Below, piece after piece: positions 3,918 to 58,100 of a stretch of DNA of 64,000 nucleotides. The translations under genes were made by a program, and so were the position numbers. Source of the DNA: Zingiber officinale. Lineage: Eukaryota; Streptophyta; Magnoliopsida; Zingiberales; Zingiberaceae. Below the pieces are notes generated by a model that saw only the letters and a program-made list of their open reading frames with translations, did not search any database and was not told the origin of the DNA. Every line of letters begins with the position of its first letter. Within the stretch, counting starts at the first letter, position 1. The DNA lies in NCBI RefSeq assembly GCF_018446385.1, contig NC_055992.1, positions 19,066,877-19,130,876 on the forward strand, read 5' to 3'.

Positions 3918-4216
3918 GCTGGATCGGCCCGCATCGATCGATTGTGTATCCGATCGGTCCGTGACCAATCGATAACAAAAAGGTTTACCTGATCGGTGGG
4001 GACCGATCTGATCGGCCCCGGACCGATCGTGAGTGGGATCGGTCCGGACCGATCAGATTCCACGCAGAGTTGGGCAACTCTGTGAAGCCTTCGATCGGTC
4101 CGGGGACCCAGGGCCTGATCGGTCCCCACGACCGATCAGTTCAGCCCCAGACCGACACGTCCTAGCCGTTGCGTAGCAACGGCTAGTTTCTTCGCTGTCT
4201 TCTTCGCAGTATAAAG
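3918..4216 (+). promoter_or_regulatory. LTR A promoter: palindrome run plus TATA box
   Basis: Imperfect palindromes with GATCGGTCC...GGACCGATC arms occur at about 3918, 3953, 3990, 4011, 4038, 4091 and 4118. About 70 bp further on lies TATAAAG (4210-4216), followed by 'ggggtcgagg'. The layout marks the U3 promoter of the retrotransposon. The palindromes are candidate regulatory sites, inferred from position only. Confidence 0.7.
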
Positions 4217-4743
4217 GGGTCGAGGGCCTGTGACTTCTTCTTTTCTTCTAGAACTTCGTCCTCGGCAAGCTTACGTCAAGAGCTGATGAGCTCGCCCAGA
4301 GCTTCGCGTGAGCTTCGATCGCCGACCACCGCGTTTGGGTTGTGAAGTTGCTGCTTCACCTCCAGTCGACAAGAAAGCAAGCAATTGGTAGAGTGCTATT
4401 GTATTCATATTGTATTGCTTTTCTTACTGTTCTTGTACTCTTTGTTTGCTGTTGCAAACGTTTGTGGCGAGGTTTCTCCACCCACAAGGAGTATATTGTA
4501 TTAGCCGGTTCTCCGGGGGCTCATCCACCGACGGATTGACTGGACTCGTCCACCTTACGGACACGCCGAGGAGTAGGAGCCCTAATCTCCGAACCTCGTT
4601 ACATCCTTGTGTTAAGGTTTGGTTTTCTTCTCTTTCGTTTCTTTGTATTTTCCGCTGCGCTAACACGTTTTGTAGAAAGAAACGACGATTTGGGGTCGGC
4701 TATTCACACCCCCTCTCTAGCCTCCGTACGAAGGATCCTAACA

Positions 4744-5455
4744 AGGGAAGCTTAGTCTATGCATGTATAGGATGATATGGCTTCGACCTGGTGCATTTGG
4801 CTAAGTGGAACTAACCGAAGCTACCCTTTATAAATCCTAACCAGTTAGACCAGGGTTTTGTACTAAGTCCAGTGGATAGGACTATTTGGAAAACCTCGAA
4901 GGCATGGTTACTTTAATGATGTCCAAGTGACTCACCATAGCCCAGAAGTTTATCCAGAGAATGCTTATTTGTTGAACCCAAAGCTAAACTTGAATCTAAC
5001 ACAAGTTAAAAAGAAACTCTAAAATTGAATCTAATTCATCTCACAAAATTATAGGATTTCCTGATTGAAAACATAGATCGGGTGAGATGACTAAGAAAAT
5101 GAAATTAAAATTAAAATTAAAATTAAAATTAAATTAAATTAAATTAAAAATTAAATTTAATTAAAATCAAATTAAATTAAAATTAAAATTAAATTAAATT
5201 AAAATAAACTTAAAATTTTTTTAATCTTAAGAATTTATTTTAAAGCTTAATTTTTTTAACTTAAAAATTTATTTTAATCTAAATTTTTTTTAAACTTATT
5301 TTAAAATTAAAACTTAAATTTTCTTTAAACTTAAAAAATTTATGTTAAATTTGAAACGTAAATATTTTAACTTAACAATTTATTAAAACTTAAAACATCT
5401 TTAAGTTCAATAGTTAGACTAACCCCAATTCCTACCTATTATAGGAAACTAAGTG
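4744..5455 (+). other. Conserved gag-pol linker region of element B
   Basis: There is no open frame. The first 300 bases match, in reverse complement, parts of element C (28080-28264 and 29857-29930), and more distantly element D near 13750-13870. This is followed by an AT-rich run of 'attaaaatta' units (5099-5210) and more AT-rich text up to the protease. The conservation between copies shows that it is a real part of this element family. Confidence 0.7.
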
Positions 5456-9665: not shown

Positions 9666-9769
9666 TGTTGGTACGGTTAGCACTAATGGTCTAACTCAGG
9701 TTTTGATGAATGACAAATCGGGTTAAGTTAGGTTTGTTGTGATCTAACACTCTGACCGAGTGTGCAGAC

Positions 9770-9975
9770 GAAGTCCAGACAGGTCAACGGCCTGACCAGA
9801 TGTCTGGCACGAAATCCAAGCGGGTCGACGGGCTGACCGGACGCTTGGTGAGAAGTCCAGCTAGGTCGACAGGCTGACCGGATAGCTGACGAGAAGTCCA
9901 AGCGGGTCGACGGGCTGACCGGACGCTTGGTAAAAAGTCCAGACGGGTCAAAAGGCTGACCGGATGTCTGGCAGG
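9770..9975. repeat. Tandem units in U3 of LTR B
   Basis: Four to five units of about 55-60 bp, each with 'aagtcca', 'gggtcgac' or 'aggtcgac' and 'ggctgaccgga'. The same block is present in reverse in the element C LTRs at about 24005-24215 and 32535-32730. Confidence 0.75.
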
Positions 9976-10237
9976 TAAGTGAAGGTAAGTCACTGGAAGG
10001 GAGTGACTGCGAGGACGCATTCCCGGGAAGGGAACGTTAGGCGTCGATCCAGCGTCGATCCATTTCGGATATCTAAGTCGAGATCGTGACTAGATTCCGG
10101 TCTCGGAAAGACAAAATCTAAGTCATACTTTTCATGTTAAACTTATGAACTGTGCTAACACTTTGTTTTTGCAGGAAATTTATTATACTTGCCTCAGACT
10201 AACCTTGTCTTGCAGGAGAATGACCTGTTCTGGAGAA

Positions 10238-10407
10238 AGTGGTCCAGGCGCCCGGAGGGGATTCGGGCGCCCGGAAGGGATCCGGGCGCCCGGGAGGCAA
10301 GTTTTATCCCGATTGCGCGTCACCACATGGAGCTCGCTGGTTGGACCTGCCATGTCTCACCAGGGCGTCTGGAAGGGATCCGGGGCGCCCCGAGCTTCAT
10401 ATAAAAG
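10238..10407 (+). promoter_or_regulatory. LTR B promoter: GGGCGCCC palindromes plus TATA box
   Basis: Repeated palindromic cores (GGGCGCCCGG three times at 10245-10295, and GGGGCGCCCC at 10382) lie immediately before TATAAAAG at 10400-10407. GC-rich perfect dyads at this density are unlike the rest of the LTR. Position suggests a promoter-proximal element. Confidence 0.65.
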
Positions 10408-10773
10408 AAGGGGCAGGGGTGGAGCTTCAACAACAACTTAGAATCCAAGATCTGCTGTTCTGTGCTATTGCGACGCCACGAAAAGCTTTCCGACTCAGTG
10501 CTGGTTTTGTTTTAATTCTATTGTCGGTATTTTCTTTACCTATCAATTCTTGTACTTAACTCTGTAATATTCGAATTGATAGTGATTGTCCACCAAAAGC
10601 GGTCAACGATCGCGGGCCTTGGAGTAGGAGTCGACACAGGCTCCGAACCAAGTAAAACCGAACTGTGTTAGCCTTGCCTTCTTACTTTGTCATTTCTTTT
10701 CCGCTGTGCTTACTCGAGAAAAGTTTAATCGATATTCACCCCCCCCCCTCTATCGAACTCTCACGATCCAACA

Positions 10774-11265: not shown

Positions 11266-12540
11266 TTAGGTGTCAGGAGGTGGAGGATCATGGGCAGCAC
11301 GAAAATAGCCAAACATCCTAGTCTGTTGTGCCTCTAGCGTCTCTACTCGTCTAGTAATATCCTGACGAAAATCTACCTGCTGGTCCTGAAACATCATCTG
11401 AAGAGAGTCGAAATGACCAAAAATATAGTCTCGGAGCTGATTGAATGGATCACGAAATTGAGGAGGAGGAGCTGTAGATGAACTCGCCTGAGCGGCATCA
11501 AAGACAAGAGTCTGGGAATACTCAATAGCTAACGGTGGTATATAGGGCTCCTCTACAGCAATGGGAATGCCCTCAGCATCCACTGCTTCCTCGACTGGTG
11601 CAACATAGTATGGATGAGTACGCTTGTAAATCAGACCCTGAGGACTAGTCTTAATCCCAACCAAGGATATTTAACAATACCAATTAACTCAAAATTAGAT
11701 AACTCGATCAACTCACCATGCCCAAGACCTACTCCTAAGGAAGCTATGAAAGCTGTAAGGATATGACAATGAATCATGTGTACCTTAAACGAGGTACTGT
11801 AGCCAGAGTAGTAGATTATGGACTTAAAAACTCAATAAGCAAAATCTATATCTGGTTTATGCTTAAGGACATATATTAGAAAAAGATGAACAGGATGGAG
11901 AACTGCCTGATCTCTGGATGAAAGAGGATGAATGCATGAGACGACCATTTTGTATAATGCATTTTCATTTGGGCTTAGTGGGATTGAAGACATCTTCCTT
12001 GGTCGAGGACCTTGGAAGAAATCGGCATACATGAGGTCTAGTGTGAGATGAGAAAACGAATCGGGCAAAATGTCAGGATATGATGGATAAGGAAAGATCC
12101 GGGTAGTTGATGGACGCATGCGTAAGAAGCGAGAAAATATATTAAAATCAAACAACATATCCCTCGAAGCAACTCTAGTTTTAAAATGATATGCATCAAT
12201 CTCACATAAATTATGATAAAATTCAGTGCAAAGTGTGGGGTTATATGCATGCCTACAGAGAACCAGACTGTCTAACGAGTAATGGTGTATAATATCGACT
12301 ATTTCAGGACAGTAGGTTTGATAAAATGGTAGATCAAGGCATCTAGTACCCACAACTAAAAAAGTGTTGTTGGAAAAAGATTGATGCAAGTTCTTTGTGG
12401 ATAATCTAGGGTCTTGGCTAGGATTGGAGGAGCTAGCCTCCTTTTGGGTAAGTTTACACAGTTTTTCACTAAAAAAGAGAATAAAAAAATAAGTAAATGT
12501 GCGAAAAGAAAGAACTAAACTTCAATTCATACCGAGGCAT
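11266..12540 (-). pseudogene. Transposase_32-like gene with a possible 63-bp intron, degenerate
   Basis: The protein resembles the plant-wide 'putative plant transposon protein' domain (Transposase_32): EFYHNL, then a VASRDMLFDF segment and FSRFLRMR fit its EFY...VRG...FSPE..INRFL pattern. Its biochemical role is not known. A start ATG at 12540 followed by 8 coding bases, an intron with GT (12532) and AG (12470) ends, then exon 2 would keep the frame. The frame is closed by a TGA at about 11832 but reads on in the same frame for about 55 residues. It then needs one frameshift near 11665 to reach the C-terminal part (11664-11266), which has a coiled-coil-like end and Pro-rich tail. Two breaks suggest an old copy. 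The short intron is inferred from splice signals only. Confidence 0.6.
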
Positions 12541-12632
12541 GGCTTATGAAAGCAGAAACTCGAAAAATCGTTGGATAGATGTGAAGAAATAGGAAAGGAG
12601 AGTTGTATGAAAGATTTAGGTTCTGTGGGTGT

Positions 12633-12966
12633 TATATAGACCTCGATCGATCGACCGATAAGCGGTTCGATCGACCGATAAGCAATTCGGTCGACCGATC
12701 CAATAAATTTGTTGTCATCCGAAGCCGAATGTTAGATGTTTGGTCGACCGATCCAAGAGGTTCGGTCGACCGATAACTTAAAGATGCATGGTTTTCCGTG
12801 CACCAACACAAAATGAATGGTGGATCATAAAGTATTCGGTCGACCAAAAATGGTGATCGGTCGACCGATGAATTTATTGTTCATCCGTTTAAAAAATATA
12901 TATAATTGACTGGTTCAAAACAACGTCTGTTCGGTCAACCGGTAAGTATGATCGGTCGACCGATCA
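12633..12966 (-). promoter_or_regulatory. Palindrome run and TATA box in front of the transposase-like gene
   Basis: About nine copies of CGGTCGACCGA-type palindromes (TCGATCGACCGATAAGC, TTCGGTCGACCGATCC and variants) occur between 12643 and 12966. On the minus strand they are followed by TATATAAC (about 12633-12640), then about 90 bases to the proposed start ATG at 12540. The layout matches that of the Copia LTR promoters in this window, but it stands inside the element. Confidence 0.65.
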
Positions 12967-13565
12967 TTTTTTTTTAAATGATTTTTCATTAAATAATTTT
13001 TTAGTTTAAGTTTAAAGTAATTTTTTAAGTTTTTTAAGTTTAAAATGATTAAGTTTTAAGTTATGTTTAAAATAATAACTTTAGTTTTTAAAATAATTTT
13101 AATTAAGATGTTAAAATAATTTTAATTAATTTTTAAAATACTTTTAATAATTTTAATTAAGTTGTTAAAATAATTTTAATTTAGTTTTTAAAATAATTTT
13201 AATTAATTTTTTAAATAATTTTAATTACATTTTAAAATAATTTTAATTTAGTTTTTAAAATAATTTTAATTAAGTTTTTAGAATAATTTTAATTAAGTTT
13301 TTAAAATAATTTTAATTAATTTTTTAAAAATAATTTTAATTACATTTTTAAAATAATTTTAATTAAGTTTTTAAAATAATTTTAATTAAGTTTTTAGAAT
13401 AATTTTAATTAAGTTTTTAAAATAATTTTAATTAAGTTTTTAAAATAATTTTAATAATTTTAATTAAGTTTTTAAAATAATTTTAATAATTTAAATTAAT
13501 TTTTAAAATAATTTTAATTACATTTTAAAATAATTTTAATTAAGTTTTTTAAATATTGAAAAAGG
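12967..13565. repeat. AT-rich tandem array in element D
   Basis: About 25 units of roughly 22-24 bp with consensus 'ttttaaaataattttaatta'. Unit borders are blurred by small length changes in T runs. Related AT arrays occupy the matching place in elements B (5099-5210) and C (25250-27970). Confidence 0.85.
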
Positions 13566-14199: not shown

Positions 14200-16513
14200 T
14201 GTAACGACCCGCCTCCTACTGTCTAGGCTGCGAGGCCTGGGGTTACATTATGCTAAACTATTTTGTGCGGAAAGCTGAACTAATTAAGAATTCTACTATT
14301 TGCTATAAAATATGGAGTTCAAAGTTCACCATACTTTTTTTTCTTTCATTGCTATACACATACTAAAGAAAGGAACTTAAACTTTCTATTTGATCAAAAG
14401 CTGAAATTAGACACTTCTAGCTGAAATCAGACATTCCAATTGATCGGCTGATCGATTGGAGTTATCTGATCGATCCACTGATCGATTCAACCTGCTACTG
14501 TGCACGGTGTCAATTCTGGATCGATCGGCTGATCGATCCAGCCTAGCCAATCGATCCGATAATCGATTCAAAGGCTCTCTGTTCGAGGAAATTAATTCCA
14601 GATCGATCGGCTGATCGATCCATGGCCGATCGATCAGTTGATCGACTCATCAGCTCTCTGTACGCGGAAGTCATGTTTCAATCGATCGGCTGATCGATCG
14701 AGGACTTCTCAATCGATCAGCTAATCGACTCAGCTGCTCACTGTTCGCGGGGAATCACCTCCCAATCGATCTCAATCGATCAGCCGATCGATTGGGTTTC
14801 TGATTTCACTGAAATCCCCCACGAACTCATACAGAACTTTCAGAACTCAACTAAAACATCAAACAATACCACTAGACAGGTTATTATTTATACTTTGCTA
14901 ACTAATATCAAGATAATTAGTAGTCTAAGCATGGCATAATACATACTTTCACAATTCATGATACCTAGCATCCTAAAAGTGCAGGGAAGTAACAACATAA
15001 GGAAATACTAAGTTTTTAAGTTGGCTAATTCCCAAAAATCTTTATTTCAGGTTCCTTCTCACACACATCTGATCGCATTGCCCTCCAGCCTCCGCTAGTC
15101 CATCTTCCCTTTACCTTTATCTGCAGTATAAGGAAAAAGGAAACTATAAGCTTGGGAGCTTAGTAAGAACCATCTACCTCACAAATACATGCATTCGAAG
15201 AAATCATGTTTTCAAGGATGTTTTTTTGAAATACATGCTGATGATCATGCTGAAAAATGCTAAAATATGGCATATGGACATACAAGTCGTGCTAATCAAT
15301 TACTGAACATAAAGCTATTCATTGTATCAACAAGCAAACTAAACCGATACATAAGCTAAGCTATTTGTTATAACAATAAGAAAACTAAATTGAAGCTAAG
15401 CTGTATTCACATATCTGGTTTGTGAAGTTTGAAAAAACTATTTTCATAAATAGATAAAAATAATAATCATGCTGCTGATGGGCCCGACAACTGTACTTGC
15501 TATGCGCGCGTCCCTAACTAGACCCGAGGTAACTAGTCCCGAATCTAGTAGGGTTTACTAGGTTATTTAAACCTAGGGACGACTATGGGAGCCCAACCCA
15601 AGGACATCTGAGAGTCCAGTATAGTGCCACTGATAAAAGTAAAATACTGTTCATAACTGATTTATCTCATCTTGCTTTTACTAGGTTATCTAAACCTAGA
15701 GCTAGTTTATCTGAACCTAGAGGCGATTATGGGAGCCCACCCATTGGACCGTAGTCCCATATAAACTGAAACAAGACTATGTACGTTATTTAAAAATGCA
15801 TCTATAGCATTTATCTGGGTTATTAAAATGCCTACTGTGGCATATAACTGTGCTAGTCATTCTATCGAGCACCTGGTGTACTCTAATTCTACACATGGCT
15901 GAACTAAGAATGTAGAAACACACGGTTAGCTACGCATACTGCAGGTGAGGGGTTATTTACATCCTGCACCAAGTTTTCTTACAATCCGATCGCTAGGTTT
16001 CCGGAGAAGAAGATCTCTTCGGCGATCCTCTTATGTCTACGTGTTCTTCTCACGGAGGGGAGCGTCCTCGTGCCGGAGTTGTCGCCGGAGGGTGCTCCTA
16101 TGACCCTAGGGATTGAACCCTAGGTCTTCTTGAGGTTGTGCACCGAGAGGGTGAAGAAGAGAGAGAGGTTCGGCGGTGAGGTTTGAGGGTGAGGAAAGTT
16201 GTCGATCCAAGAATAATAAATTCCCTCTTAATTCCCCTATTTATATTAAGTGATTAATACATCCCAATTAAATCTTAAATATAATTGCTCTCCTCTCCTT
16301 TCAGCACACCCCTGCTGGGGCCCCTTAATTACTAAGTCACCCTATAAGTCATAGAGTTCATAGGTCGCGGGTTCAATTCCCGCTTAGGCTGTTTTATGTT
16401 TTTATTTAATTTTGCTACTTCTGCTACTCCAAAAATTCTATAAAAATATTCTAAAATTTCAGAAAAATCATAGAATATTTCTAAAATTGATCTGAGAATT
16501 TTCGGGCGTTATA
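14200..16513 (+). mobile_element. Gypsy-type solo LTR (2.3 kb) inside element D
   Basis: Starts TGTAACGACCCG and ends GGGCGTTATA, the typical ends of Tekay/Del-like Gypsy LTRs (last bases mutated from ACA). Flanking pentamers GTTGT (14195-14199) and ATTGT (16514-16518) differ at one base and fit a 5-bp target duplication. There is no internal region, so it is a solo LTR left by recombination between two LTRs. Near its 3' end, 16361-16388 holds a tRNA T-arm-like hairpin (GCGGG-TTCAATT-CCCGC). Gene content: none. Confidence 0.75.
14438..14796. promoter_or_regulatory. Palindrome run in the Gypsy-type LTR
   Basis: At least nine palindromes of the type CGATCGGCTGATCGATCC or AATCGATCAGCTAATCGACT, in close pairs spaced by 10-20 bases, with 'ctgttcgcgg' words recurring between them. 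A possible TATA-like sequence ('ttatttatac') lies further on at 14884. The motif differs in sequence from the Copia ones but has the same organisation. Confidence 0.6.
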
Positions 16514-18101: not shown

Positions 18102-19530
18102 TATTAGATCGAATGGGTGCGATAGAGGAGGGGGTGAATATCGCGCCTTTTTAAAACTTCTCTTTTTCTTTGAAAGCAGAGTCGTGCACAGCGAAAAGTA
18201 AAAAGAAAGACAAGCTTATTTACTTCGTTCGAAGTCTAGGTCGACTCCTACTCGAAGGCCCGCGATCCTTGATCGCACTGATGACCAATCCACTATAACC
18301 CTCCTTTTCAAAATCCCCAGAGAGAAGCAGAACATACAAAATGAGCAAGATAGTAACAACCTACTATCTTGCTTAAGTTAATTACAATGCAAGCTAATAA
18401 AATATACCGACAAGTAATACAGTTAAAGCTTTGGTCGGCACTATTGGATGGAGTGACTTGCAGAGCTGATGAAGACTTGTAGCACGAGTATCTTGCAGAA
18501 GAGAACTTCAGTAGATCAGAAAGTGTTACGCAACCTCAAACCTCAAGAATCTTTTTATAGGTGTAATGGATGTTCAGTCGACCGATCCCTCTGTTCGGTC
18601 GACCGAACCAGCTCCCTTCCTTCCTAGCTGGAGTCTGATGCTGACTCGATCTCTGGCATTAATTGTTCATTAAGGGTTCAGTCGACCTATCCCTCTTTTC
18701 GGTCGACCGAATAGGCTCCTTCCCTATTCGTCGAGATTGGTCGAGATCCTCATTTAATGCTGGTTTAATGTTGATTGGTTCGGTCGACCGATCCATGGGT
18801 TCGGTCGACCGATCAACCCTTCTTTCCTTTTACTTCTGATCAATGTTGTTGAACTGACATTGCTGAGTCATCATGGTTCGGTCGACCGATCAAACTTTGA
18901 TCGGGCTCTGATATGTTCTGGTCTGATTTGAACACTGCCTTGATTTCTTCTTGTTCGGTCGACCGATCCTCCGGTTCGGTCGACCGATCCAGCCGGACCT
19001 ACAACACAGTGTTAGACAAAAAAGAATCCTGCAAAATAGATGTTAGTACAGTAATAATATTATAATGCATGAGTAATATAAAAGACAACAGAACTGTCAT
19101 GATCTCAACTTTAAAACCTTCCCGGTTTCTTCAGTTGGATCAGCGACGTAAGGTTGTTCCATTCTGGAACCCGACCTCATTGTCGCTCTTCCAGTTGCTT
19201 ACCTTAACCTATCTGCCAAACTTAGATCCTCCAAATCTAATTTAGACTTTTCACTTAGCTTTGATCGGCTCGCCAGGACTTGTCTCTTGATCTTCGGTCC
19301 TCCAGACCTCTCGATCACACCGCCAAGCATCGGGTCCCCTCGACCAGCTTGGACTTGCACCTGGGTTCTACGATCTGCTAAGATTTCTCCTGCCTAGCCT
19401 CCAACTAGGTCTTTTCGATTGAGTAAACAGTCTGCACACTCGGTCAACTTGTTAGATCATAACAAGACTTAACTTAAACCTTTGACAACATTAAAACATA
19501 GGTTTGATTCTGGAGCAACTTGCACCAACA
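18102..19530 (-). repeat. 5' LTR of element D (1429 bp)
   Basis: On the minus strand it begins TGTTGGTGCAAG at 19530 and ends GATCTAATA at 18102 (terminal CA mutated to TA). It is the same family as the solo LTR at 28270-29851: both share the 'gcgacaatgaggtcgggttcc' type segment, the palindrome run, the TATA box and the 'cgcgggcctt' segment. Confidence 0.82.
18551..18990 (-). promoter_or_regulatory. LTR D promoter: GGTCGACC palindromes plus TATA box
   Basis: About nine copies of TTCGGTCGACCGA(T/A)CC, mostly in pairs about 10-14 bases apart, lie between 18574 and 18990. On the minus strand they lead to CTATAAAAAG (18560-18551). The pairs sit on both sides of unrelated spacers, so the palindromes are conserved while the spacers drift. 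Confidence 0.7.
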
Positions 19531-23247: not shown

Positions 23248-24322
23248 TGTTGGATCATGATCGTTCGATAGAGGGGGGATGAATATTGAATTAAAATTTC
23301 GTCGAGTAAACACAGCAGAAAAGAAAAGAAACAATGCTAACAGAATCAATTTACTTGGTTCGGAGCCTTTGACGACTCTAACTCCAAGTCCCGCACACAA
23401 GGGTGCTTTCGATGGGTAATTCACTAGCAATTCGGAAATTATTACAAACTAAGTACAGGAATGCCAATGAAAAAAATAAAACAATACCGACAAAGGAAGA
23501 AACTAAAAGAGCAGCGCGTTGTCGGAGCTTCGCAGCGTCGCAAGAGCACAAGAGAGCGGATTCTGAGTTCTTCTGACTCCAGCCTTAGCCCTCCTTATAA
23601 AGGAGGTTCGGGGTACCTGGAACCTTCAAGGCGCCCTGGAGTGACATAGTCGAGCCAACCAGCGAACTCCACGTGGCATAGTGACGTTAGGGATAATTTT
23701 TTGTGTCCGGGCGCCCGGGTACCTCCGGGGGCCCGGGTACCTCTCGGGCGCTCGAACTTTGATTTCCAACAGCTTCCTTCCTGTAAGAAAACGTTAGCCC
23801 GAGGCAAATATATATCCTACAAAATAGATTATTAGCACAATTTATAGTTTAACAAAAAGAGTATTAATTAAATTCCGTCTCTCCGAGACCGAAATCTAGT
23901 CAAGATCTTGACTTAGAGTTTCGAAATGGTTCTAAGTCGGATCGGCGCCGAAGTTCCCTTCCCAGGAATGCGTCCTCACAGTCACTGTCCTCCAGTGACT
24001 TACCTTTACTTACTTACCAGACGTCAGGTCAGCCCTTCGACCCGTCTGGACTTCATGTCAGCTATCCGATCAGCCTGTCGACGTAACTGGACTTCGTGGC
24101 AAACGTCCGGTCAACCCGTCGACCCGTTTGGACTTCGTGTCAGCTATCCGGTCAGTCCGTCGACCTAGCTGGGCTTCGTGCCAGACATCAGGTCAGCCCG
24201 TCGACCTGTCTGGACTTCTCCTACACACTCAATCAGAGTGTTAGATAATAACGAAACTAACTTAACCTATTTTATCATTCATCAAAACCTGGATTAGACC
24301 GTTAGTGCTAACCGCACCAACA
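23248..24322 (-). repeat. 3' LTR of element C (1075 bp)
   Basis: On the minus strand it starts TGTTGGTGCGG right after the polypurine tract (24323-24340) and ends GATCATGATCCAACA. Contains tandem units (24005-24215), GGGCGCCC-type palindromes (23707-23755) and a TATA box (23596-23601). Confidence 0.88.
23596..23756 (-). promoter_or_regulatory. Promoter of the 3' LTR of element C
   Basis: GGGCGCCCGGG, GGGGGCCCGGG and CGGGCGCTCG motifs (23707-23755), then, about 100 bases on along the minus strand, TTTATAAGG. The matching segment of the other LTR is at 32123-32270. Same layout as in LTR B. Confidence 0.6.
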
Positions 24323-25249
24323 ATCTCCCCCTTTTTGATGGAATGACAACTTGGTTAAGTTAGTGTAAAATGCAAGTAAAACAAGCATTAACAGGTTTTT
24401 AAATTAGTTTTTATTTTCAATTTGTTTTAGCTAACTTAACCACCTAACCCTCCCCCTTTGGCATTCATCAAACATAAATATGGATCAAATAAGCATAAAT
24501 ACAAAAATATTGCAAAAAGAATGCAAACACAAATCAGATTGACTCAGGGGAGTTAAATAATTAGAAATTTTGCTTTAAAAAGTATCTCTTATCCTTTTCA
24601 AAATGGCTAAGTTATAAGAAAGATAACTTAGAAAGAGTAATTTTTAATAACTTTTCCAAAATAGCTAAGTTTTGAAAAATGACTAAGTTAGAAAGATAAC
24701 TAATTTAGCAACATATCTTAGTAGTAAGTTTGCAGATTAATTTTCAAAAGATAATTATTGCAAACATAAATTTATAAATGCTAATTTTTCAACTATAAGT
24801 TTAAAGTTAACCAAAAAAAATCCAAACTTCCAAACATAAGTTTATATGTTCCAAAATTTTTAAAATTAAACTTGAACTTGAAACATTTTTCAAACATAAA
24901 TTCTATAAAGATAATTTTACAACAGTAAAATTTTTAAAAACTAGGTAAAATTCAATGTTCAAAATCTAATTTTTCAAAGTTAAGTTTGTGAAATTTAATT
25001 TGCAAAACTAAGTTTGTAACATTACATTTTCAAAACCAATTTTCAAACCAAGTTTATAACATATAATTTTCAAAACCAAGTTTAAAAAAATTAACATAAA
25101 ACTTAGTTTTACAAAGGTTAGGTTTCATAAGAACATTTCTAAAACATTTTTAGATCAAGAATATTTTCCAAAACCTAATTTCAAAAATATTTTTAATAAA
25201 AATTAGATGTGAAAATAATTATTGTTCCCCCTGAACCTGACATTATTAA
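24323..25249 (-). other. Polypurine tract and post-pol region of element C
   Basis: The polypurine tract 'aaaaagggggagat' reads on the minus strand next to the LTR. The rest is AT-rich, non-coding, and similar to the element B post-pol region (for example the 'gtcaggtt...ggggga' word near 25230 and at 8885). Confidence 0.65.
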
Positions 25250-27970: not shown

Positions 27971-28269
27971 TAATTTTAAATTCTTAGTCGTCTCACCTAA
28001 TCTAAATTATCAATTAGGGAATTGTATAGTTTTGTGAGGTGATTTAGATTTCATTTTCGGATTGGTTTAACTTTGTGTTAGATTTAGGTTTAGTTTTGGG
28101 CTCAACAAATAGGCATATTTTGGATAAACTTCTGGGTTATGGTGAGTCACCTGGATATCATTAGAATAACCATGCCTTCGAAGTTTTCCAAATAGTCCTA
28201 TGCACTAAGCTTAATACATAACCTTGGTCTAACTAGTTAGGATCTGTAAAGGGTAGCTTCGGTTAGTTC
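27971..28269 (-). other. Conserved inter-ORF region of element C (left part)
   Basis: Reverse complement of the element B segment at 4808-5090, including 'ggtttagttttgggctcaac' and 'cttcgaagttttcc'. It is split from its other half (29857 on) by the solo LTR. Confidence 0.75.
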
Positions 28270-29851
28270 TGTTGGTGCAATCAACCTCCTAGGTTTTAAT
28301 GTCAGACAAATATGTTTAAGTAAGAATGTTTTAGTATGGAGCTTGATCTAGGGAAGTCCTAGTTGTAGGCTAGGCAAGGGAAGTCCTAGTTGGAGGCTAG
28401 GTAAGGAGAGAAAATCTCGGTATATCGTGGAAGCCAGGTGGATAGGTCTGGAGGACTTGATCCCTGGCTAGCCGAATACTGAGTCCTAGTTGTAGGCTAG
28501 GTAAGGAAATCTCGGTATGTCGTGGAAGCCAGGTGGATAGGTTTGGAGGACTTGATCCCTGGGTAGCCGAATACTGAGTCTTGGTGAGTGAAGCCAAATG
28601 GAGAAAACCCTAAGGGGGGGTAACCTTAGGTAACGAGAAGTCTTGGAGGAGTGAACTCCAAGCAAGGTTGATCGGATGGTTTCCGGTCGACCGCGTAAGG
28701 TCGACCGGACCAGCGGATCTAGATAAATCTAAGTTTAGGTTTACTATTATTTTCTGTATTACTATTATTGTTGTTGGCTAATATGGTATTACAAGAAAAG
28801 TCTTAGTGGATCAGCGATCAGACACTAAGCAGACAAAAGACCAAACATGTCTGGAGGATCATGTTTGGCAGGTAAATTGAGGTAAGTAACTGGAAGAGCG
28901 ACAGTGAGGTCGGGTTCCTAAAGGGAACAACCTAAGGTCGCTGATCCAACTAAAGAAACTAGGAAGGTTTCCAAGTTGAGATCAAGATAGTCCTAACTGT
29001 CATACTCATGCATTATATATTACTGTGTTAACATTTGTGTTGCAGGGATACTTTGCTTAATACTGTGTTGCAGGTTTGGCCGGATCGGTCGACCGAACCA
29101 GAGGATCGGTCGACCGAACCAAGATGATTCAGCACAGATCAGTAACGATCAGATGTAGAAGGAAACTACACTGATCGGTCGACCGAACCATCAATATTAA
29201 AGGTGCAGTAAATGCAGATCACGACAAATCTCGACGAACAGGGAAGGAGCCTGTTCGGTCAACCGAATAGAGGGATCGGTCGACCGAACCATTGAAGGCA
29301 AATTAAAGCACAATTACGAGCCAGCGTCAGATTGCCAGCTGGAGGTGATCGGAACTGGTTCGTTCGACCGAACCTTCAGTACCCCTATAAAACCAGGCTC
29401 GAAGACAGAGGCTGTGAGATAACTCTTCTGATAATCTCAAAAGTTCTTCTTCACGTACGGATTGTGCTACACATCTTCAAAAGCTCAGCAAGTCACTCCG
29501 TCCGGAAGTACCGACCAAGCTACATTCTACGCATACTATTGTCGGTATACTTATTTTATATTGCACTTAATTGTAAATAAGATAGTAGGCTTGTTACTAT
29601 CTTATTCCATTGTACTTGTACGATCTGCTTCTCTCCGAGGACTTCAGAGAGAAGAGTTTTAGTGTTTTGCCCATCGGTGCGGTCAAGGACCGCGGGCCTT
29701 CGAGTAGGAGTCGAGCTAGGCTCCGAACGAAGTAAATAAACGTGTCTCTTTCTTTAAGTTCCGCTGCACATTTCTGATTTGAAAAGGAAAAGAAAAGTTT
29801 TTAAAACGAGCGATATTCACCCCCCCCTCTATCGCTTCAAACGATCTAACA
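28270..29851 (+). mobile_element. Solo LTR of the element D family, inserted in element C
   Basis: TGTTGGTGCAAT...CGATCTAACA, 1582 bp, flanked by a perfect AGTTC duplication (28265-28269 and 29852-29856). Joining the flanks restores the uninterrupted sequence seen in element B near 4808. Contains two copies of a repeat with 'aatctcggtatgtcgtggaagccaggtgg' type text (28410-28570), a palindrome run, a TATA box at 29386, and the R-U5 end 'atattcacccccccctctatcg'. Confidence 0.92.
29079..29392 (+). promoter_or_regulatory. Solo LTR promoter: GGTCGACC palindromes plus TATA box
   Basis: Seven palindromes of the type GATCGGTCGACCGAACC (about 29081, 29103, 29174, 29256, 29276 and 29363, some mutated to GGTCAACC or CGTTCGACC), then CTATAAAACC at 29385-29394. 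The same arrangement is seen in LTR D. Confidence 0.72.
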
Positions 29852-29856
29852 AGTTC

Positions 29857-30902
29857 CAATTAGCCAAATGCACCAGGTCGAAGCCATATCTTCCTAGACA
29901 TGCATAGACTAAGGTTCCCTAACGTACTATCATCCAAAACTTCACCAGTACCGTTGGTCAAGTTAAACCTTGCCCTTTTACTCTAGTCCTAATTACCCTG
30001 CCGGGTAGATTGGTTTCGGTTACCCTGTCGGGTAATTATTTTTGGAGGTGCCAGCTATTCTAGAGCCCCCCCTAAAGTATTGATTTTCCTTTTAAGTTTT
30101 TTTTTATATAATTTAGTTTTAGTTAAGATTTAATGTTTAATTTGTAATTTAAATTTAAGTTTTTAATTTTGAATTAATTAAATTGGTCAAATTATCTTTC
30201 TTTAAAAGAGTGTATTTAATATTTGAATTTTCTTTCAATTTTAATTTTATTAAGTTAATTGAATGGTCTTTATTTAATAGATGATCGTTAATGATTAAGT
30301 TTTTATTAATTTTTAAATTTAAATTAATCAAATTGTTTAAATTATATTTCTTTAAAGGTTTATCTTTTAACCTTTTATTAACGGTTAATTTTGAATTTTC
30401 TAGATTTACTTTGTTTAATATGTTATCTTTAACATTTAATTTTAAGTTTGTTAAATTTATTTTTGATTTTATAAGAGTGTTTAATTTTATCCTTATATTT
30501 TCTTTACCTTTTAAGTTGATATAATTAATGGAATTTATTAGATAAGTCTTATCTTTAAAATTTAATTTTTTTGTTCATTAAATTATCTTGTGTTTGGATA
30601 GGATTTTCCAGATTGATATTGTCTAAATTACTAAATAATTTATTAATTTTATCTAGATCAATATTGACCTTATCATTATTATTTGAATTTTCAGATTTGT
30701 TTAGGTTTAAATTTGAATTTTAAGGGTTATTAATTATTTTGAAATTTTCTGAATTTTCTAAATCAGTTAGATTTATTTTATCAGAAAATATCCTAGGGAT
30801 ATTTTTGCAAGTATTGTCAGCTACACTATTTTCATAGATATTTTGGTAAATATTACTAACCTTTAGCGCACTCCCTAATTCAGTAGGCTTTTCTGTTGGA
30901 TT
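29857..30902 (-). other. Inter-ORF region and distal gag remnant of element C
   Basis: The first 100 bases complete the conserved linker. The rest is AT-rich. On the minus strand, short coding-like pieces near 30790-30890 (EKPTELGSALK) continue the gag frame beyond the MITE. The 77-residue plus-strand frame at 30291-30524 is AT-rich and without a domain. Confidence 0.5.
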
Positions 30903-31777: not shown

Positions 31778-32827
31778 TATTAGATCATGATCGTTCGATA
31801 GAGGGGGGTGAATATCGAATTAAAATTTCATCGAGTAAACACAGCGGAAAAGAAAAGAAACAATACTAACAGAGTCAATTTACTTGGTTCGGAACATTTG
31901 ACGACTCCTACTCCAAGGCCCACACACAAGGGTGCTTTCGATGAGCAATTCACTAGTAATTAAGAAATTATTACAAACTAAGTACAAAATGTCAATGAAA
32001 AAATAAAACAATACCGACAAAGGAAGAAACTAAAAGAGCAGTGCGTTGTTGGAGCTTCGCAGTGTCGCAGGAGCACAGGAGAGCAGATTTTGAGTTCTTC
32101 TGACTCCAGCCTTAACCCTCCTTATAAAGGAGGTTCGGGGTGCTTGAAACCTTCAAGGCGTCCTGGAGTGACGTAGCCGAGCCAACCAGCGAACTCCACG
32201 TGGCACAGCGACGTTGGAGATAACTTTTTGCCTCCGGGTGCCCGGGTACCTCCCGGGCGCCCGGACCTTGATTTCCAGCAGCTTCATTCCTGCAAGAAAA
32301 CGTTAGTCTGAGGCAAATATATATCCTGCAAAATTGATTATTAGCACAGTTTATAGTTTAACAGAAAGAGTATTAATTAGATTCCGTCTCTCCGAGACCG
32401 GAATCTAGTCAAGATCTCGACTTAGAGTTCTGAAATGGTTCTAAGTCGGATCGGCGCCTAAGTTCCCTTCCCAGAAATGCGTCCTCACAGTTACTCTCCT
32501 CTAGTGACTTACCTTTACTTACCTGCCAAACATCAGGTCAGCCCTTCGACCCGTCTGGACTTTATGCCAGCTATCCGGTCAACCCGTTGACCTAGCTGGA
32601 CTTCGTGCCAAATGTCCGGTTAGCTCGTCGACCTGTTTGGACTTCGTGCCAGCTATCCGGTCGACCCGTCGACCTAGCTGGGCTTCGTGCCAAACATGAG
32701 GTCAGCCCGTCGACCTGTCTGGACTTCTCCTGCACACTCGGTCAGAGTGTTAGATAACAACGAAACTTAACCTATTTTGTCATTCATCAAAATTTGAGTT
32801 AGACCGTTAGTGCTAACCGCACCAATA
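31778..32827 (-). repeat. 5' LTR of element C (1050 bp)
   Basis: On the minus strand it runs from TATTGGTGCGG (32827) to GATCATGATCTAATA (31778). Structure as in the other copy: tandem units (32535-32730), GGGCGCCC palindromes (32232-32270), TATA box (32122-32128). The two LTRs differ by scattered point changes and a few small indels, so the insertion is not recent. Confidence 0.88.
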
Positions 32828-35201: not shown

Positions 35202-36865
35202 AATGAGGAATAGGAATAGCAATCAATGTTAATATTTGGATTACAACAATGGGAATATAAATGAGGGAATGATTCCTTATTAGTGGATAATAACTTATTC
35301 CGATGTCCCACCCCTTCAATCACCCATTCCTGTATTTGCAGCAATCACAATTTTTCATTAATACCAAAATTACCCTTAACCTAATTTCCCATCTCATTTC
35401 TCTTCTCCTCTCCTCTTTGCAACCTATTCTCGAACGACGCCAACGCCGCTCGACGCTGAGCGTCGCCACCTCGCCGAACGCCTCCACCTCGTTGAACGCC
35501 GTCACTTTGCCGAACGCCCCACCTCCGATCACGTCCGCTCGCCAACTCGACCTCGACCTTGATCCTTTATTATCCGTCGAGCCTGCCAAGCCGTGGGCCG
35601 CCGACCTCCTCCGCCACTGCGCCCGCGCCTTCGCAGACAAGGACTCGCTAACCTGCACCGCCTCCTCTGGATGCTCAACGAGCTCGCCTCCCCCTACGGC
35701 GACTGCGAGCAGCGCCTCGCCTATGCCTTCCTGCAGGCCCTCTTCTGCCGAGCCACAGCCTCCGGCGACCACTGCTACAGCACCTCCCTCGCCGTCGCCG
35801 AACGCACCATCTCCTTCGCCTCCACCCGCCGCCTCGCCCTCAAGTTCCAGGAGGCTGCCCTGTGGTCCACTTTCGGCCATGTCGCCGCCAACGACGCCCT
35901 CCTCCAGGCCCTCGACGGTGAGCCTGCTCTCCACATCATCGATGTCAGCAACACCTTCTGCACCCAGTGGCCCACGCTCCTCGAGGCCCTCGCCTCGTGC
36001 GCCGACGCAGATGCCCAGCGCCTCCGGCTCACCATCGTCTCCTCCACTGTCGCTGGCGTCGTGGCCAAGATCGGAGCATGCATCGAGAAGTTCATGCGTC
36101 TTATGGGCATGCCGCTCGAGTTTCGAGCTATCGCCGCGCCTCGCCGACGCGCTGCGCCCCGAGAAGCTCGAGCTCCACGAAGGGGAGGCTGTTGCGGTGA
36201 ACTGGGTCGGCGCTCTTCGGAGAGCCGGGTGCGGGGATTCGCGAGACTCGTTCCTACGGGCTGTGGCGGCGCTGCGGCCGAGGGTATTGACCGTAGTGGA
36301 GGACAAGGCGGACTTCGGCGCCGTGGGCGAGTTCATGGAGTCCTTCGAGGAGTGCCTGCGGTTCTACGACTCCTATTTCGAGATGCTGGAGGAGAGCTTC
36401 TCGGCGACGTGCAACGAGCGGCTTGCTCTGGAGAGGGAGTGCTTCCGGAGACTCGTCGGACTGCTGGCGTGCGAGGGCGGTGCAGACGCAGTGGTGGACA
36501 GTGAGCGAAGGGAGAGAGGGAGGCAGTGGTGCCGACGGTTGGAGCGGTGCGGCTTCGAGACGTTCGGCATCAGCGATGATGTCATCGATGACTTGAAGGC
36601 GTTGCTGAAGCAGTACCGGGCGGGATGGTTGCTGCTGGCGGCGGAGGGGGAGATGTCGGGCATGTACCTAACGTGGAAGGATAAAATTGGAAATTTATTT
36701 GATTCCCATTACTAATGTTGATTCGAAACAAACATCATCAATTATAATCATATTCATTCCAGATTTTGAACCAAATGCTGATAATGTAATCTTGATTTTC
36801 ATTCCCATTGACTCCATAATCAAACCCATTATCATTCCGATTGATAAATTTGAACCAAACGCTCC
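35202..36865 (+). mobile_element. Inserted block carrying a SHORT-ROOT fragment (possible Pack-type element)
   Basis: The GC-rich GRAS sequence is framed by AT-rich ends full of 'ggaatga' and 'gggaat' words: the left end has 'aatgaggaataggaat' and the right end, read in reverse, 'tttggttcaaatttatcaat' then 'ggaatgataatggg'. Such ends are typical of certain plant MITEs. The GRAS homology stops abruptly within the C-terminal codons. The block is therefore best read as a transposon or repair patch that picked up a gene piece. The classification is inference. Confidence 0.5.
35540..36690 (+). pseudogene. SHR-like: SHORT-ROOT-like GRAS pseudogene, two frameshifts and cut C-terminus
   Basis: SHORT-ROOT is a GRAS transcription regulator that moves between cells to pattern root and leaf tissues. 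Seen in order: [17 protein letters not shown], then in another frame [68 protein letters not shown] (the VHIID region), [15 protein letters not shown]. It then goes back to the first frame with [34 protein letters not shown]-like [14 protein letters not shown], and GMYLTWKD. The frame changes lie near 35645 and 36130. The last dozen residues of the family (the VWASAW end) are missing and replaced by AT-rich text. No convincing start codon. GC-rich codons remain, so the copy is fairly young, or the two frame changes are assembly errors. Confidence 0.8.
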
Positions 36866-49100: not shown

Positions 49101-52100
49101 GGATAAGTAAAATTGTATAAGTTGTATCAAACGGTACAAAATGAGGCTTTACACGTTTGATAAAGTATCATATCAGAGTAGACACCTAAAGTCTTGTATA
49201 CATGGAGCTGTGCACCTTGTATATCCTCTCAACATCTAACTATCCCTTGCCAAAGAAACTACTATTTCGGGCCCTCCATACATAATGGATCATAGATGAC
49301 AAGGCTAGAGGACGTGCCTTTATCAAAGTCCTACTCCCACAGTAATGCTGCTCGAAGACTCGCATCGTCCATCGATAGGTTGACATCTCCTGGCGCATAT
49401 GAAGCCAATCTCTGATCCTTCGCCATAGCTACGTAATAGGGGGGCACCCGAAGAATAAGTGCTCCTGTGTCTTCACCAACTGACCACAAAAAGTGCACTA
49501 CAAGTAGTCCTGTCGATCTCTAGTGGGAAGTCAAGTCTACACCAACAACAAGAAAGTGATTGCATGTCTGGGCTGTATGTCTTCCATAGGTCCGAGCCCA
49601 CGACTTCTTAGGAGCAGGATGCTTGAAGAAGTCGTAAGCCCTAACCACCTCATCATCCTATGTAAGTCAATCTGCCAATCACTATCGAGTAGCCTCTAGT
49701 GATCATCAATGGGGAATCCGAACGGACTATATGCCACTCCCAAATGTTGATGTGAATCAAGTAGGTACGATGTACCCACTTGATCCAGAGTGCGTCCTTC
49801 TCTTGTCTACGCCACAATACCTTTGCTAGGATAGCTAAATTTCAGGCTCGCAAGTCCCCAACCTGCAATCGTCCTTCGGTTTACACATATCTCCCCAATT
49901 TGCCTTCGTCCTTTGGTTTACACACATCTGCCCATAATACAGGAGGATGTTTGGACGCCCAATGAAAGACCTACAAATACTATAGATGCGATCGACGATG
50001 CCTAGAGGTAAAGGTTGTACCTTGCCAGCGTAAGATAGCGTCTTCCGTGGCCCGACATTGATTCGACGGATCAAGGAATCCAGCAGGTGGGTGTAATATG
50101 ATATCCGAAGACGCACAACTATTGGAATCCCTAGATGTCGAAAAGGCATGGTGCCCTCTAGAAAGCCCATGATGGAGAGAAGCCTCAGCATCGTGTCGTC
50201 AACTCCCGGCAGTTAGATGCTCGATTTTAGGTGATTAACTTGAAGTCTAGCAGTCTCCCCAAAATCTTGCAAACATGTGGTCAAGGTCCCGACGGATGCA
50301 ACATTTCCTATGCTAAAAAGTAGCAAATCATCCTTATGTTTCCATCATAAGTTTGTTGTTTGTCGAACACAATTCATACTACATTGAGTGTTATCAAAGT
50401 CAACATTGACACTTGTTTTTCATGCTATGTTATATTTAACGGTGAAATTATTAAGTTGTGTTGAAGTTCCCTCTACCTTCATTTATTATCCATTGATTTA
50501 AAGTTATGTTTTACACCTTGTATTATATGATATTTATAAATAGTCCTTGTATTTACAATTAGGTCTTTGGTGTTTCTATTAATTCTAGCAGAAAGGTAGA
50601 ATGGGAACTCAATGTGTTACAAATAGGCTTAAATGATTAATGTGTAGGATCGAAAAACGCTAGAAGGGGGGGGGGATGAATAGCGCTCGTGACTAATTCG
50701 TTCGTTTTAAAAGAATTGAGTAAATGCAACGGAATAAGAACAATTAAAGAAAACAATGACACAAGTTGGTTTTATTTGGTTGGGAGCTTGTGACGACTCT
50801 TACTCCAAAACCCATACTTGTTGAGTGTTTACTTTGGGCAATTCACTATCAATCCGAAATATTACAAATTAAAGTACAATTAATTAAGTGTAGTAAAAGT
50901 ATACCAACAACTAAGAAATCTGGAATCGGAGCTTTAGGTTGTCAGAACAGTGTTATGACTTTGCCGGAATGTCTTTTGAGCAGCACACAACACACAGAAG
51001 AAGACTTGCAAAAATCTGATGTGTTTTTTTTGCCTCTACTCGAACCAGGCTTAAGTAAGCCATTGAGGGCGTCTCCAACCTCCATAGGAGGCGCCTTCAG
51101 CGGGGATACTTATCCCGATTTCGTAGTGTCGATAAGCTCCGTGGCGTCTGCTGCTTATCCACCCGAAGGCGCCTCTAAGCTCCATGAAGGGCACCCTCCA
51201 TCTAGCGTTCAAGGCGCCTTCCATCTCCTTGGAAGGCGCCTTCGCGTCTTGCTGCGCGAGGCTTTCGACCAAGGCACTCGAGGCACCTCCAAGCTCTATG
51301 GAGGGCGCATCGGGAACTGTTCATCCGAGGCTTTTAAGTCCTTTTCTCTCCCTGCAAGATGCGTTAGTCCAAAATACAAAACATATCTTGCAAAATAGAG
51401 TTAGCACAATAAAATATGAAATAATAAGTTATTTTAACAGTCTCCGGACTATCCTCACCTACTCCTCTCAAGAGAGTTTACCTGTTGCCAGACCGGTCCT
51501 CCAGACCGACTGAGCTTTTGCTCCGCGTCCGAGTCTTCAGGACTTTTCTGTTGGACGTCCGATTCCCGATCTGTCTAGTCTTCCACCTGGTTCGCGACCA
51601 CCTGGATTTTCACCTGGAGTCTCCAACTCTAGGATTTCGCCTAAATATTCTCGACACGCCAAGACTTTTTGCTTAGGGTTACCACCCCTTAGGTTTTTTA
51701 CCTGCTTAACCGCAACTAGGACTTTTGCCTAAACAACTTAGGACTTTTCCTGCAAGCTCAATCAACCTTGTTGATCACAAGACAATTTAACTTTGAACCT
51801 TTTGACATAATCAAAACACATGTTCGATCGTCTAGTGCTCCTTGCACCAACATAATGTACCACAACATTTACCATTTATTTTAAATTTAGTACATTTTTT
51901 TTTTAATTTTTTAAAATATAACACCATATTATTTTTGTTTCAAATATATCATAATTAATAATTCTTCCCATTGTTAAATTGGATGACATGTTGATGATGT
52001 GGTACAATGACATATTAAAAAATATTCATCATTGTCCTTGGATTCATTACATTATTGTACTAATAACAGGTTGTTCCCGAAAGAAACATGTTGTAGGGTC

Positions 52101-55100: not shown

Positions 55101-58100
55101 TATAAGGGTATTAAACTAATACCATGAAACTTTGGGAAAAAGTAATAGAAAAAAACTAAGGAATGTAACCACGATAATCTAAAATCAATTTGAAATTATG
55201 CTTGGAAGGTCAATAATAGAAACTTACGCAACTAATTGAAAAGTATCGGGAATAAAAGTAAGACTTACACATGGTATTCGTTTACTTAGAAAAAAAAACT
55301 TATGATAGAGTTCTAAAAGAAATTATATGGAGAATTTTAGAAAAGAGAGGTGTTAGCATAATGTATATTGAACTAGTTAATAATATATATGAGGACGCTA
55401 TGACAAGAGTGAAGACTTCAAGCCGATTGATCGAAGCGTTTCCATCAAGGATCAGTTCTAAGTCTCTATCATTTTATTCTAATCTCAAGATATGGTACGG
55501 TGGTGTATTTTATTTGTAGATTGTTTTAGTAGATGAGATACATAAAAGATTAAATGCTAAACTCGAATTTTGACGGGAAATGCTAGAAGTGAACGATTTT
55601 ATACTTAGTAAAGACAAAATATATGAAATTTAAATTTAAAAATATTAGACGTAATGAGACAAATGTTAAGATATAAGATGACGAGTTATCTGTAAAACTT
55701 TAAGTATTTAAAATCATTTTTGTAAAAGGATGAAGAGATTGAGAGATGTCTTACATATATTTTTTGGATAAGTAAAAATTTAGTATAACCAAACCAAGAT
55801 CACAACAAATTATTGTAGGATCGATGACGTGCTAGAGGGGGGGGGGTGAATAACACTCGTGCCTAATTCGTTCGTTTCGGAAAACTCCGAATAACACAGT
55901 GGAATAAAGAAAAGAAACAAACACAATCGCTAATAGGTTTCTTTTACTTGGTTCGGAGTCTGTGACGACTCCTATTCTAAGGCCCGCGATCGTTGATCGC
56001 TTACGTTGGGAAATCACTAATAGCTCGGAAATTCTTTACAAGTAAACAATTACAAGTACAAAACTAAACAAAGCATACTGACAATATAAGGATGAGTAAA
56101 AGAGTCATCGATTGTCGGAGGAGCAGTTGAGCGTTGTTGAAGGGTTTCGGAGCAGCACATAGCGCAAGTAGCCTGATTTTTGGTGTCCCTGAAGTGCTGA
56201 TCGAGACCCCTTTTTATAGCCTCTTCAAACCTGATCCAGATCATTTGATCTTGGGATCAAGTTTTGACTCGACCCTGATCGGTTGACCGATCCCTAGGTT
56301 CGGTTGACCGAATTTACTGAATCCACTCGGCCTTCCGTCCAGATGTAGTCTCTCTAGATGAGCCTTGGTCCGATTGACCGATCCCTCCGTTCGGTCGACT
56401 GATCTGCTGATGGTCTTCGCCTTATCTGATCCGATCAACCTGGCTCGATCCGGTCACCGCTTATCCTCGGTTCGGTCGACCAATCCCGAGGTTCGGTCGA
56501 TCGATCCCTCGATCGAACCTGGTCTAATCTCTGGAAATCTGATTCTGTTGTACTCGGGTTCGATTGACCAATTCGGCCGTTTGGTCGACCGATCCGACCA
56601 TTCGGTCGACCGATAAGGCTAAGTCTGACCTTGCAAAACTTAATAGTTTCTTGTAAAACTGAGTTAGACAAATAGCAATTAATATGTAAATAAATAACTT
56701 GACAACTTTCGGGCTGTCCAATTCTGATTTCGGATTTCCTTCGGAAATCCTTAGTCGAACCAACACCTACTGTTCCCTCAGCGGGGAATGCGTCCTTACC
56801 TACTACTCTCAGAAGAAGTTAGCTGTTGCCAGATCAGTCCTCCAGACCGGCTGGACTTTTGCTCAGTGCCCGAGGCTTCAGGACTTTCTGCTGGACGTCC
56901 GCTCCACAACTCGTCCAGACTTCTACTTGGTCCGCGACTCACCAAGACTTTCCACCTAGGGTTACCACCCCTAGTACCTAGAGTTACCTCCCCCTAGGGT
57001 TTTCTATAACCTAGGGTTACCGCCCTCTAAGACCTAGGGTTATCTCTCTCTAGGGTTTTCCATAACCTAGGGTTACCATCCTCTAGGACCTAGGGTTACC
57101 TCCCCCTAGGGTTTTCCACTTGCCTAATCGCAGTTAGGACTTTCCATTACCTAGGGCTACCACCCCCTAGGACTTAGGGTTACCTCCCTCTAGGGTTTTC
57201 CACCTGTCTAGAATCGACTAAGACAACTTAGGACTTTCCTGCAATCTCAATCAGCCATGTTAGATCACAAGACAACTTAACTTTGGATCCTTTGACATAA
57301 TCAAAACTCAGATTCAATCGTCTGGTGCTTCCTGCATCAACAATTATTAGATGAGAGTAAACACCCAATGACCATTATACATAAAGTTGTACATTCTTGA
57401 AGATCCTCTCTATATCTAACTGACCCTCACCAAAGAAGCTACTGTTTCTATCCCTCTAAACAAAATGAATCATAGATGGTAAGGTAAGATGACGAGCTTT
57501 TGTCAACAATCGACTCCTACGATAGTCTCCCAAAGACTCTCATCATCTGTCGATAGGTGGACATCTTCTATCGCATATGAAGCATGTTTATGATACGTCA
57601 GCATAACTTCACAATAAGGGGGCATCTGAAGAAAATGTGCTCCTTTGTCTCTAGTATTCGTCTACAAACTGTCTCTAGTGGGCTAACCTCTAGAATGTGA
57701 CCACATGACTCAGTTGTAAGTAGTTCTTCCACACTATCTGGCCCATGACTTCTTAATAATATGCCTAAAAAAATAATATGCCTTAGCCACCTTGCCATCA
57801 TGCCGATCAAACCAATCTGCTAGCTTCTATCCAGCAGCCTCTGGTGACCTAGCAGTCGATAATATAAGATCCCTTATATGAAGCAGATGCTTGATCAGGA
57901 GAATCTTTGTGGGCCACCTCCTAAGTTCATAGAATACAAGAATGATGATTGAAATGGAGAAAAGTGTCAGGTGCTCTTTGTGATTGTAATGTAACTCTAA
58001 GATTTAAAGGAAAGTTTTATAAAATGACGGTTAGACCTGCTATGTCATATGAAGTAGAATGTTGGGCTATGACTCGAGCATGAGCAGAATATGAGAATTG

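Follow-up and report, generated by a model that had tools for sequence, protein, structure and literature searches.

What are the runs of short palindromes that stand before the TATA boxes of long terminal repeats (LTRs) in a 64-kb stretch of the ginger genome (Zingiber officinale, NC_055992.1, positions 19,066,877 to 19,130,876), and do they represent a new kind of LTR enhancer? The stretch, referred to here as the window, contains eight Copia LTRs, delimited by their ends and their TATA boxes and named after their families: A, B, C5 and C3 (the 5' and 3' LTRs of a single element), D5, D solo, I8 and I8b. The elements are present only in part, with the 5' LTRs of A and B and the 3' end of D lying beyond the window, and I8 and I8b are LTRs without a linker in the window; the TATA box and the last palindromic box of each LTR were selected by eye, and the TATA box of I8b is degenerate. 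An initial annotation of this DNA had described the runs as common to unrelated LTR families and as belonging to no described class of LTR enhancer. The layout was in fact published in 2010 as the RM boxes of Sireviruses, and with a probability of roughly 0.85 we read the palindromes as RM boxes of Sirevirus (Ty1/copia) elements in a genome of the ginger family, where they would act as promoter-proximal sites for dimeric factors.

There is little doubt about the identification itself, that these palindrome runs are the published RM boxes in a ginger-family host. Bousios et al. (2010, BMC Genomics 11:89; PMC2829016), in the portions of that paper drawn on here, describe RM boxes in 13 Sirevirus elements at 8 to 32 copies per element; the boxes are palindromes that differ by element and, with a single exception, have a CGG-CCG core; they cluster upstream of the TATA box and form CpG islands, and extra copies precede the ENV gene, elements without ENV having no linker boxes. 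The window presents the same picture of repeated and mostly CGG-CCG palindromes, with one core per element, situated before the LTR TATA box and again in the linker before an envelope-like gene, and the RM box given for Vitis (grape), CGGTCGACCG, equals the core of family D. It differs from those portions of the 2010 description in its ginger-family host, in the small number of boxes in B and C, in the GGCGCC core of I8b, in the linker boxes of A, after which no envelope open reading frame (ORF) was seen, in the TATA box that directly follows the linker boxes of D, and in a set of distal 41-bp units that goes unmentioned there. Because the feature had already been published for Sireviruses, a new cross-family enhancer class was rejected; the roles proposed in the initial annotation, as sites for a dimeric factor, as hairpins or in silencing, have likewise been discussed in print (PMC2829016 and a later paper, each in the portions consulted). 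Two further systems are comparable. Palindromes of maize Sireviruses (2016, Genome Res 26:226, as relayed in part by two later papers, with hairpin results and small RNAs that map to the palindromes) also occupy the regulatory portion of the LTR, can form hairpins and change quickly in sequence, but have a different core, CACCGGAC...GTCCGGTG, and the small-RNA data belong to the maize system. The activator boxes of Tnt1-type Copia LTRs, as outlined in the same portions of PMC2829016, are likewise short, repeated and partly symmetric U3 elements near the promoter, but they belong to another lineage and are arrays of two or three motifs, and the likeness drawn here is one of description.

The runs were found where the initial annotation had placed them, and others were added in the linkers of A and D and in LTR I8b. 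A CGG-CCG core is present in the boxes of A, B, C5, C3, D5, D solo and I8 and in both linker arrays, though not in every box. The 4 to 10 palindromes per LTR first reported do not apply to C, each LTR of which has one exact GGGCGCCC box and one or two imperfect ones. In the 450 bp before the TATA box, dyad content exceeds that of all 200 dinucleotide shuffles in seven of the eight Copia LTRs, and a chance origin was rejected for these seven by this test; C5 is the exception. Between the TATA box and the LTR end, five of the LTRs are ordinary, their content being reached by 38 to 200 of the 200 shuffles; for each of the other three, D5, D solo and I8, the number is 2 of 200. A scan of the window made blind to annotation placed ten of the 12 strongest palindrome peaks in Copia LTRs or linkers; of the other two, one falls in a Gypsy-type LTR and one at 751-1150, where A has its gag region. 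None of the promoter-proximal boxes in B or C ranks among these 12. The distance from the end of the last box to the TATA box is 7-71 bp in the eight LTRs; in the D linker, where the last box was also taken by eye, it is 4 bp. All eight TATA boxes lie at 0.66-0.73 of LTR length, in keeping with the Sirevirus position near the LTR middle. Both C LTRs also contain a G-box-like CCACGTGG about 70-100 bp before the TATA box; it is altered in B.

The LTR families are not unrelated, as had been supposed, in that all eight Copia LTRs contain the C-rich Sirevirus integrase signal, at 18-23 bp from the LTR end (with the pattern relaxed for variants; the published average is 21 bp, PMC2829016, in the portions cited), and the visible junctions have Sirevirus polypurine tract (PPT), attachment and primer binding site (PBS) motifs. 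The Sirevirus PPT, AGGGGGAG, occurs 16 times in the window as compared with a mean of 1.18 and a maximum of 3 in 50 shuffles, and 11 of the 16 copies constitute multiple PPTs, a Sirevirus trait, in the linkers of A (five, 2501-2864), B (three, at 8894, 9520 and 9656) and C (three, at 25473, 24450 and 24325); in A the final PPT lacks one G. Pattern scans for further loci gave 14 stretches plus 0 in viral contigs, and at least 118 in genome contigs, those listed among the latter being prokaryotic; six of these 132 loci, among the matches listed, have at least three AGGGGGAG copies on one strand, kilobases apart except for some close pairs. The terminal PPT is followed by the AT/TG attachment site, exactly as AGGGGGAGATTG in B and C3 and as GGGAGATTG in A, and the PBS TATCAGAGC is exact at C5 (spacer AGTGG) and one base off at D5 (spacer ATTAG), with both of these LTRs ending in TA where the Sirevirus description has CA. 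An inverted repeat at the terminal PPT has 14 exact bases in A, 2 from the PPT; in B and C3 the longest exact arms are of 11-12 bases, 20 away, and imperfect bordering arms were seen by eye only. Pfam domains comprise a Copia reverse transcriptase (RVT_2) in B and a Copia gag in D. By these marker motifs, families A, B, C, D, I8 and I8b are assigned to the Sirevirus lineage.

Table 1. Coordinates of LTRs, palindromic boxes and associated features in the window.
Feature	Coordinates	Strand	Details
3' LTR, Sirevirus family A	3041..4743	+	TATA 4209; boxes ~3918-4139, arms GATCGGTC/GACCGATC; three GGACCGATC and four GATCGGTCC
Linker boxes of A (n=4)	2267..2403	+	Arms as in the A LTR boxes; PPT copies next, 2501-2566
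3' LTR, family B	9666..10773	+	TATA 10399; three GGGCGCCC boxes at 10265, 10284 and 10383
Distal 41-bp units of B (n=5)	9771..9975	+	Self-complementary outer stems
5' LTR, family C (C5)	31778..32827	-	TATA 32127; one exact and one imperfect box; PBS TATCAGAGC next, 31764-31772
Distal 41-bp units of C5 (n=5)	32523..32727	-	
3' LTR, family C (C3)	23248..24322	-	TATA 23600; one exact box and imperfect boxes; terminal PPT AGGGGGAG 24325-24332
Distal 41-bp units of C3 (n=5)	24014..24218	-	
5' LTR, family D (D5)	18102..19530	-	TATA 18560; seven exact GGTCGACC boxes, 18597-18978
Linker box array of D	12643..12967	-	12-mer as in the D LTR; CpG observed/expected 2.07
Linker TATA box of D (TATATAAC)	12631..12638	-	4 bp past the last linker box; putative role
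Envelope-like ORF of D	11832..12521	-	Named by position
Solo LTR, family D	28270..29851	+	AGTTC at both flanks; TATA 29385; six exact GGTCGACC boxes (28685, 28699, 29087-29278)
LTR I8 (intron 8)	55814..57342	-	TATA 56219; GGTCGACC boxes, three exact (56474-56604) and several altered
LTR I8b (second intron LTR)	50643..51852	-	Resembles I8 outside the boxes; four exact GGCGCC; TATA degenerate
Gypsy-type solo LTR	14200..16513	.	Palindromes 14438-14796; minus-strand consensus TATA sites 16245 and 14892

Several observations weigh against this assignment and against the equation with RM boxes. B alone yielded a reverse transcriptase domain, and the lineage is placed by motifs. C5 has no enrichment of dyads, 14 of 200 shuffles reaching its content. 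The CGG-CCG signature was not detected in the A boxes at 4097 and 4115 or in the exact GGCGCC boxes of I8b. Counted over partial elements, D has seven exact GGTCGACC boxes in one LTR and six in its linker, and for A the tally is four in the linker plus several in one LTR; B has three exact boxes and C one per LTR, as compared with at least eight per element in the 2010 report. The boxes also do not clearly define CpG islands, because the R-U5 regions are equally CpG-rich and B, C5 and C3 are not raised: the ratio of observed to expected CpG is 0.86-1.27 before the TATA box, 0.85-1.20 in R-U5, 0.78 in the A linker and 0.73 in the window as a whole, and, compared with the distal U3, the region before the TATA box is richer in A, D5, D solo and I8, barely so in I8b, and no richer in B, C5 or C3.

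As to what the boxes do, we consider it about an even chance that their main function is as binding sites for dimers, a prediction made because the core is uniform within a family, the boxes lie near a TATA box in both LTR and linker, and the arms are conserved in some pairs of LTRs. One or more dimeric host factors would bind the boxes next to the promoter and so drive it, and in D the linker boxes would perhaps drive another promoter, ahead of the envelope-like ORF.

Conservation was assessed as identity at box positions, with boxes called in one copy, relative to the rest of the aligned proximal U3. Between D5 and D solo, 58 of 60 arm positions are identical as compared with 185 of 250 in the spacers (p 3.5e-05), and between B and C3 the values are 19/20 and 136/209 (p 0.005). 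The difference is not significant between B and C5 (9/10 vs 127/192, p 0.17) and is absent between C5 and C3 (9/10 vs 189/212, p 1). For D5 and I8 the result hinges on the copy in which boxes are called: against 150/303 elsewhere, 54/67 positions are identical with boxes called in D5 (p 2.7e-06) and 4/10 with boxes called in I8 (p 0.75). All of these p values are too small, because positions were treated as independent though the boxes are repeats. The proposal that arms are kept while spacers drift is therefore borne out by the first two pairs, not by B and C5 or by C5 and C3, and for D5 and I8 only with boxes called in D5. Selection on the dyad between elements draws partial support from family-specific cores, from the core common to LTR and linker in A and D, and from the better-kept arms of some pairs; gene conversion on the dyad, the alternative offered alongside it, is not favoured by the comparison of C5 with C3, which covers only 10 box positions. 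The pattern suits selection during transposition better than upkeep in place, on few data.

The principal competing explanation, which we regard as possible but less likely, is that the dyads are kept as hairpins of U3 RNA at the RNA 3' end, serving either the element itself, in packaging or strand transfer, or the host, which would make small RNAs from them. The boxes can fold in this way because the RNA carries a U3 copy at its 3' end, and such hairpins might be used by host small-RNA pathways. In agreement with this, the box regions of six of the eight LTRs fold better than all 100 shuffles, the stretch for C5 also covering sequence upstream of its boxes, while B and C3 are reached by 8 and 5 of 100; both linker arrays exceed all 100 as well, and small RNAs map to palindromes in maize Sireviruses, as relayed in the portions of the later papers cited above. 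Folding is not peculiar to the boxes, however, with all 100 shuffles also exceeded by the TATA-to-end part in two of eight LTRs (A and D solo). The distal U3 exceeds them in three of eight (A, C3 and D solo), as do both parts of the Gypsy-type LTR. The core of D is a nearly fixed 12-mer, whereas any complementary stem would serve a hairpin, and the boxes adjoin a TATA box in both the LTR and the D linker, which likewise counts against the hairpin reading.

Where the distal units are concerned, RNA hairpins may be preferable to dimer-binding sites as an explanation. B, C5 and C3 each contain five 41-bp units in which the inner stem, GGTC/GACC, is nearly fixed and the outer stem varies but stays complementary, such that 95.2% of 165 cells pair. 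Two-sided stem changes are found in 20 cells, as compared with 7.5 +/- 1.8 in shuffles (none of 500 as high), and a slid partner gives at most 3; the measures least inflated by relatedness show no excess, with 4 pairs changed on both sides as compared with 3.8 in shuffles, and 9 further pair types as compared with 9.1. Over all units, the unit's own arms match at 53 of 60 variable positions, a value reached by none of 100000 permutations, and within single elements the corresponding value is reached by 4 of 120 permutations in B, 12 of 120 in C5 and 2 of 120 in C3. Independent events are few, because the units arose by duplication and the LTRs share a common descent. Arm matching across families, with crude cutting of units, is mixed, with the observed value reached in 25 of 20000 permutations for D5, 191 for I8, 199 for A, 499 for B, 994 for C5, 2100 for D solo, 3793 for I8b and 6394 for C3. 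We found no description of the distal units in the open-licence papers that made up the literature searched.

It is quite unlikely that the boxes have no selected role and that slippage, unequal exchange and template switching create and spread palindromic repeats. Some observations do favour this reading. LTRs I8 and I8b, a single pair, align over 310 of 419 ungapped positions in the distal U3 and over 210 bp of R-U5 at 71%, whereas before the TATA box there is no meaningful alignment (146/333 outside the boxes) and the cores differ wholesale, GGTCGACC as opposed to GGCGCC. D5 and D solo differ in copy number, whole box-bearing stretches having been gained or lost, and the boxes of C5 and C3 are no better kept than the rest. 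Against it stand the recurring place of the boxes before the TATA box in eight LTRs of several families, arms that are better conserved than their flanks in D5 and D solo and in B and C3, and the occurrence of the same class of box in distant plants (PMC2829016, in the portions cited).

The suggestion that a palindromic class of LTR enhancer spans the Gypsy and Copia superfamilies is highly improbable: the Gypsy-type LTR does have a strong run (minimum free energy z -9.1, second-highest peak of the window) with a non-consensus TTTATAC at 14887 on the plus strand, 91 bp past it, but its consensus TATAWA sites on the minus strand are placed 5' to the palindromes, and on the plus strand the closest downstream site is 964 bp off, RM boxes are absent from classic Copia elements (PMC2829016, in the portions cited), and maize Ty3 elements generally have no structure peak (a later paper, likewise in part). 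The TTTATAC may be what the initial annotation took for a TATA box; with no consensus TATAWA in the 960 bp that follow the palindromes, whichever strand is read (plus sites at 14304, 15760 and 16439), the palindromes are not just upstream of a consensus TATA box, and a Copia layout for this LTR was rejected on these positions. The TATAAATAGGGG at 16245 suggests that the LTR is in minus orientation, with the palindromes in its transcribed part. The solo LTR is flanked by GTTGT and ATTGT; its Gypsy label comes from the LTR end sequences alone, and six ORFs in or beside it gave no Pfam match.

Beyond the RM boxes themselves, three features are possibly new: the differing cores of the related I8 and I8b, the box array and TATA box before the envelope-like ORF of D, and the distal 41-bp units. 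The D linker array contains four exact copies of TCGGTCGACCGA, the 12-mer of the D LTR, and an ATG at 12540 lies 98 nt after the linker TATA box, out of frame with the ORF. The term envelope-like refers to position, because the Pfam match (PF20167, 27.9 bits) is below the cut-off of 45 and no homologue was found among 70 candidates. An internal promoter for Sirevirus ENV was supported but not identified in 2010 (PMC2829016, in the portions cited); the D array with its TATA box, a single one in AT-rich DNA, is no more than suggestive of such a promoter. A broader proposal, which we hold as speculative and rather doubtful, is that U3 has two layers, with distal units selected as hairpins, as two-sided stem changes would show, and a swappable proximal palindrome module that serves as promoter, is exchanged wholesale between related LTRs and is reused, with its own TATA box, for the envelope-like gene.

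The surroundings of the LTRs suggest that the window is a pile of nested elements, with A inserted in B and D solo in C, because internal sequence is common to 4744-5309 and to 27794-28269 and 29852-29890. Element A (1-3040, plus strand) has two CCHC zinc knuckles in its gag region, read by eye; there is no listed plus-strand ORF of at least 60 aa from 942 to 2324, no pol was seen before the linker boxes and PPTs, and A may be a pol-less element. Element C has no ORF of at least 150 aa between 24500 and 30900. AT-rich minisatellite arrays with 12- and 23-bp periods are present in C (26442-27865) and D (12966-13557) and are about 72% alike. An ORF resembling GRAS / SHORT-ROOT proteins lies at 35294-36712 on the plus strand and has its best matches in Curcuma and Zingiber proteins (the best 7988 candidates by word sharing were scored). 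In two of ten protein searches, outside element B, nothing usable was returned except a weak match below the cut-off.

The palindrome runs as first noted are thus a re-discovery, in another host, of a published feature of Sireviruses, and it is the additional features that would matter, if they hold. Should the distal units truly covary, part of U3 would be selected as structure, which bears on the reason for which plants make small RNAs from these LTRs. Should the box array and TATA box before the envelope-like ORF of D hold up, the 2010 hypothesis of an internal promoter for Sirevirus ENV would become testable with a single reporter.

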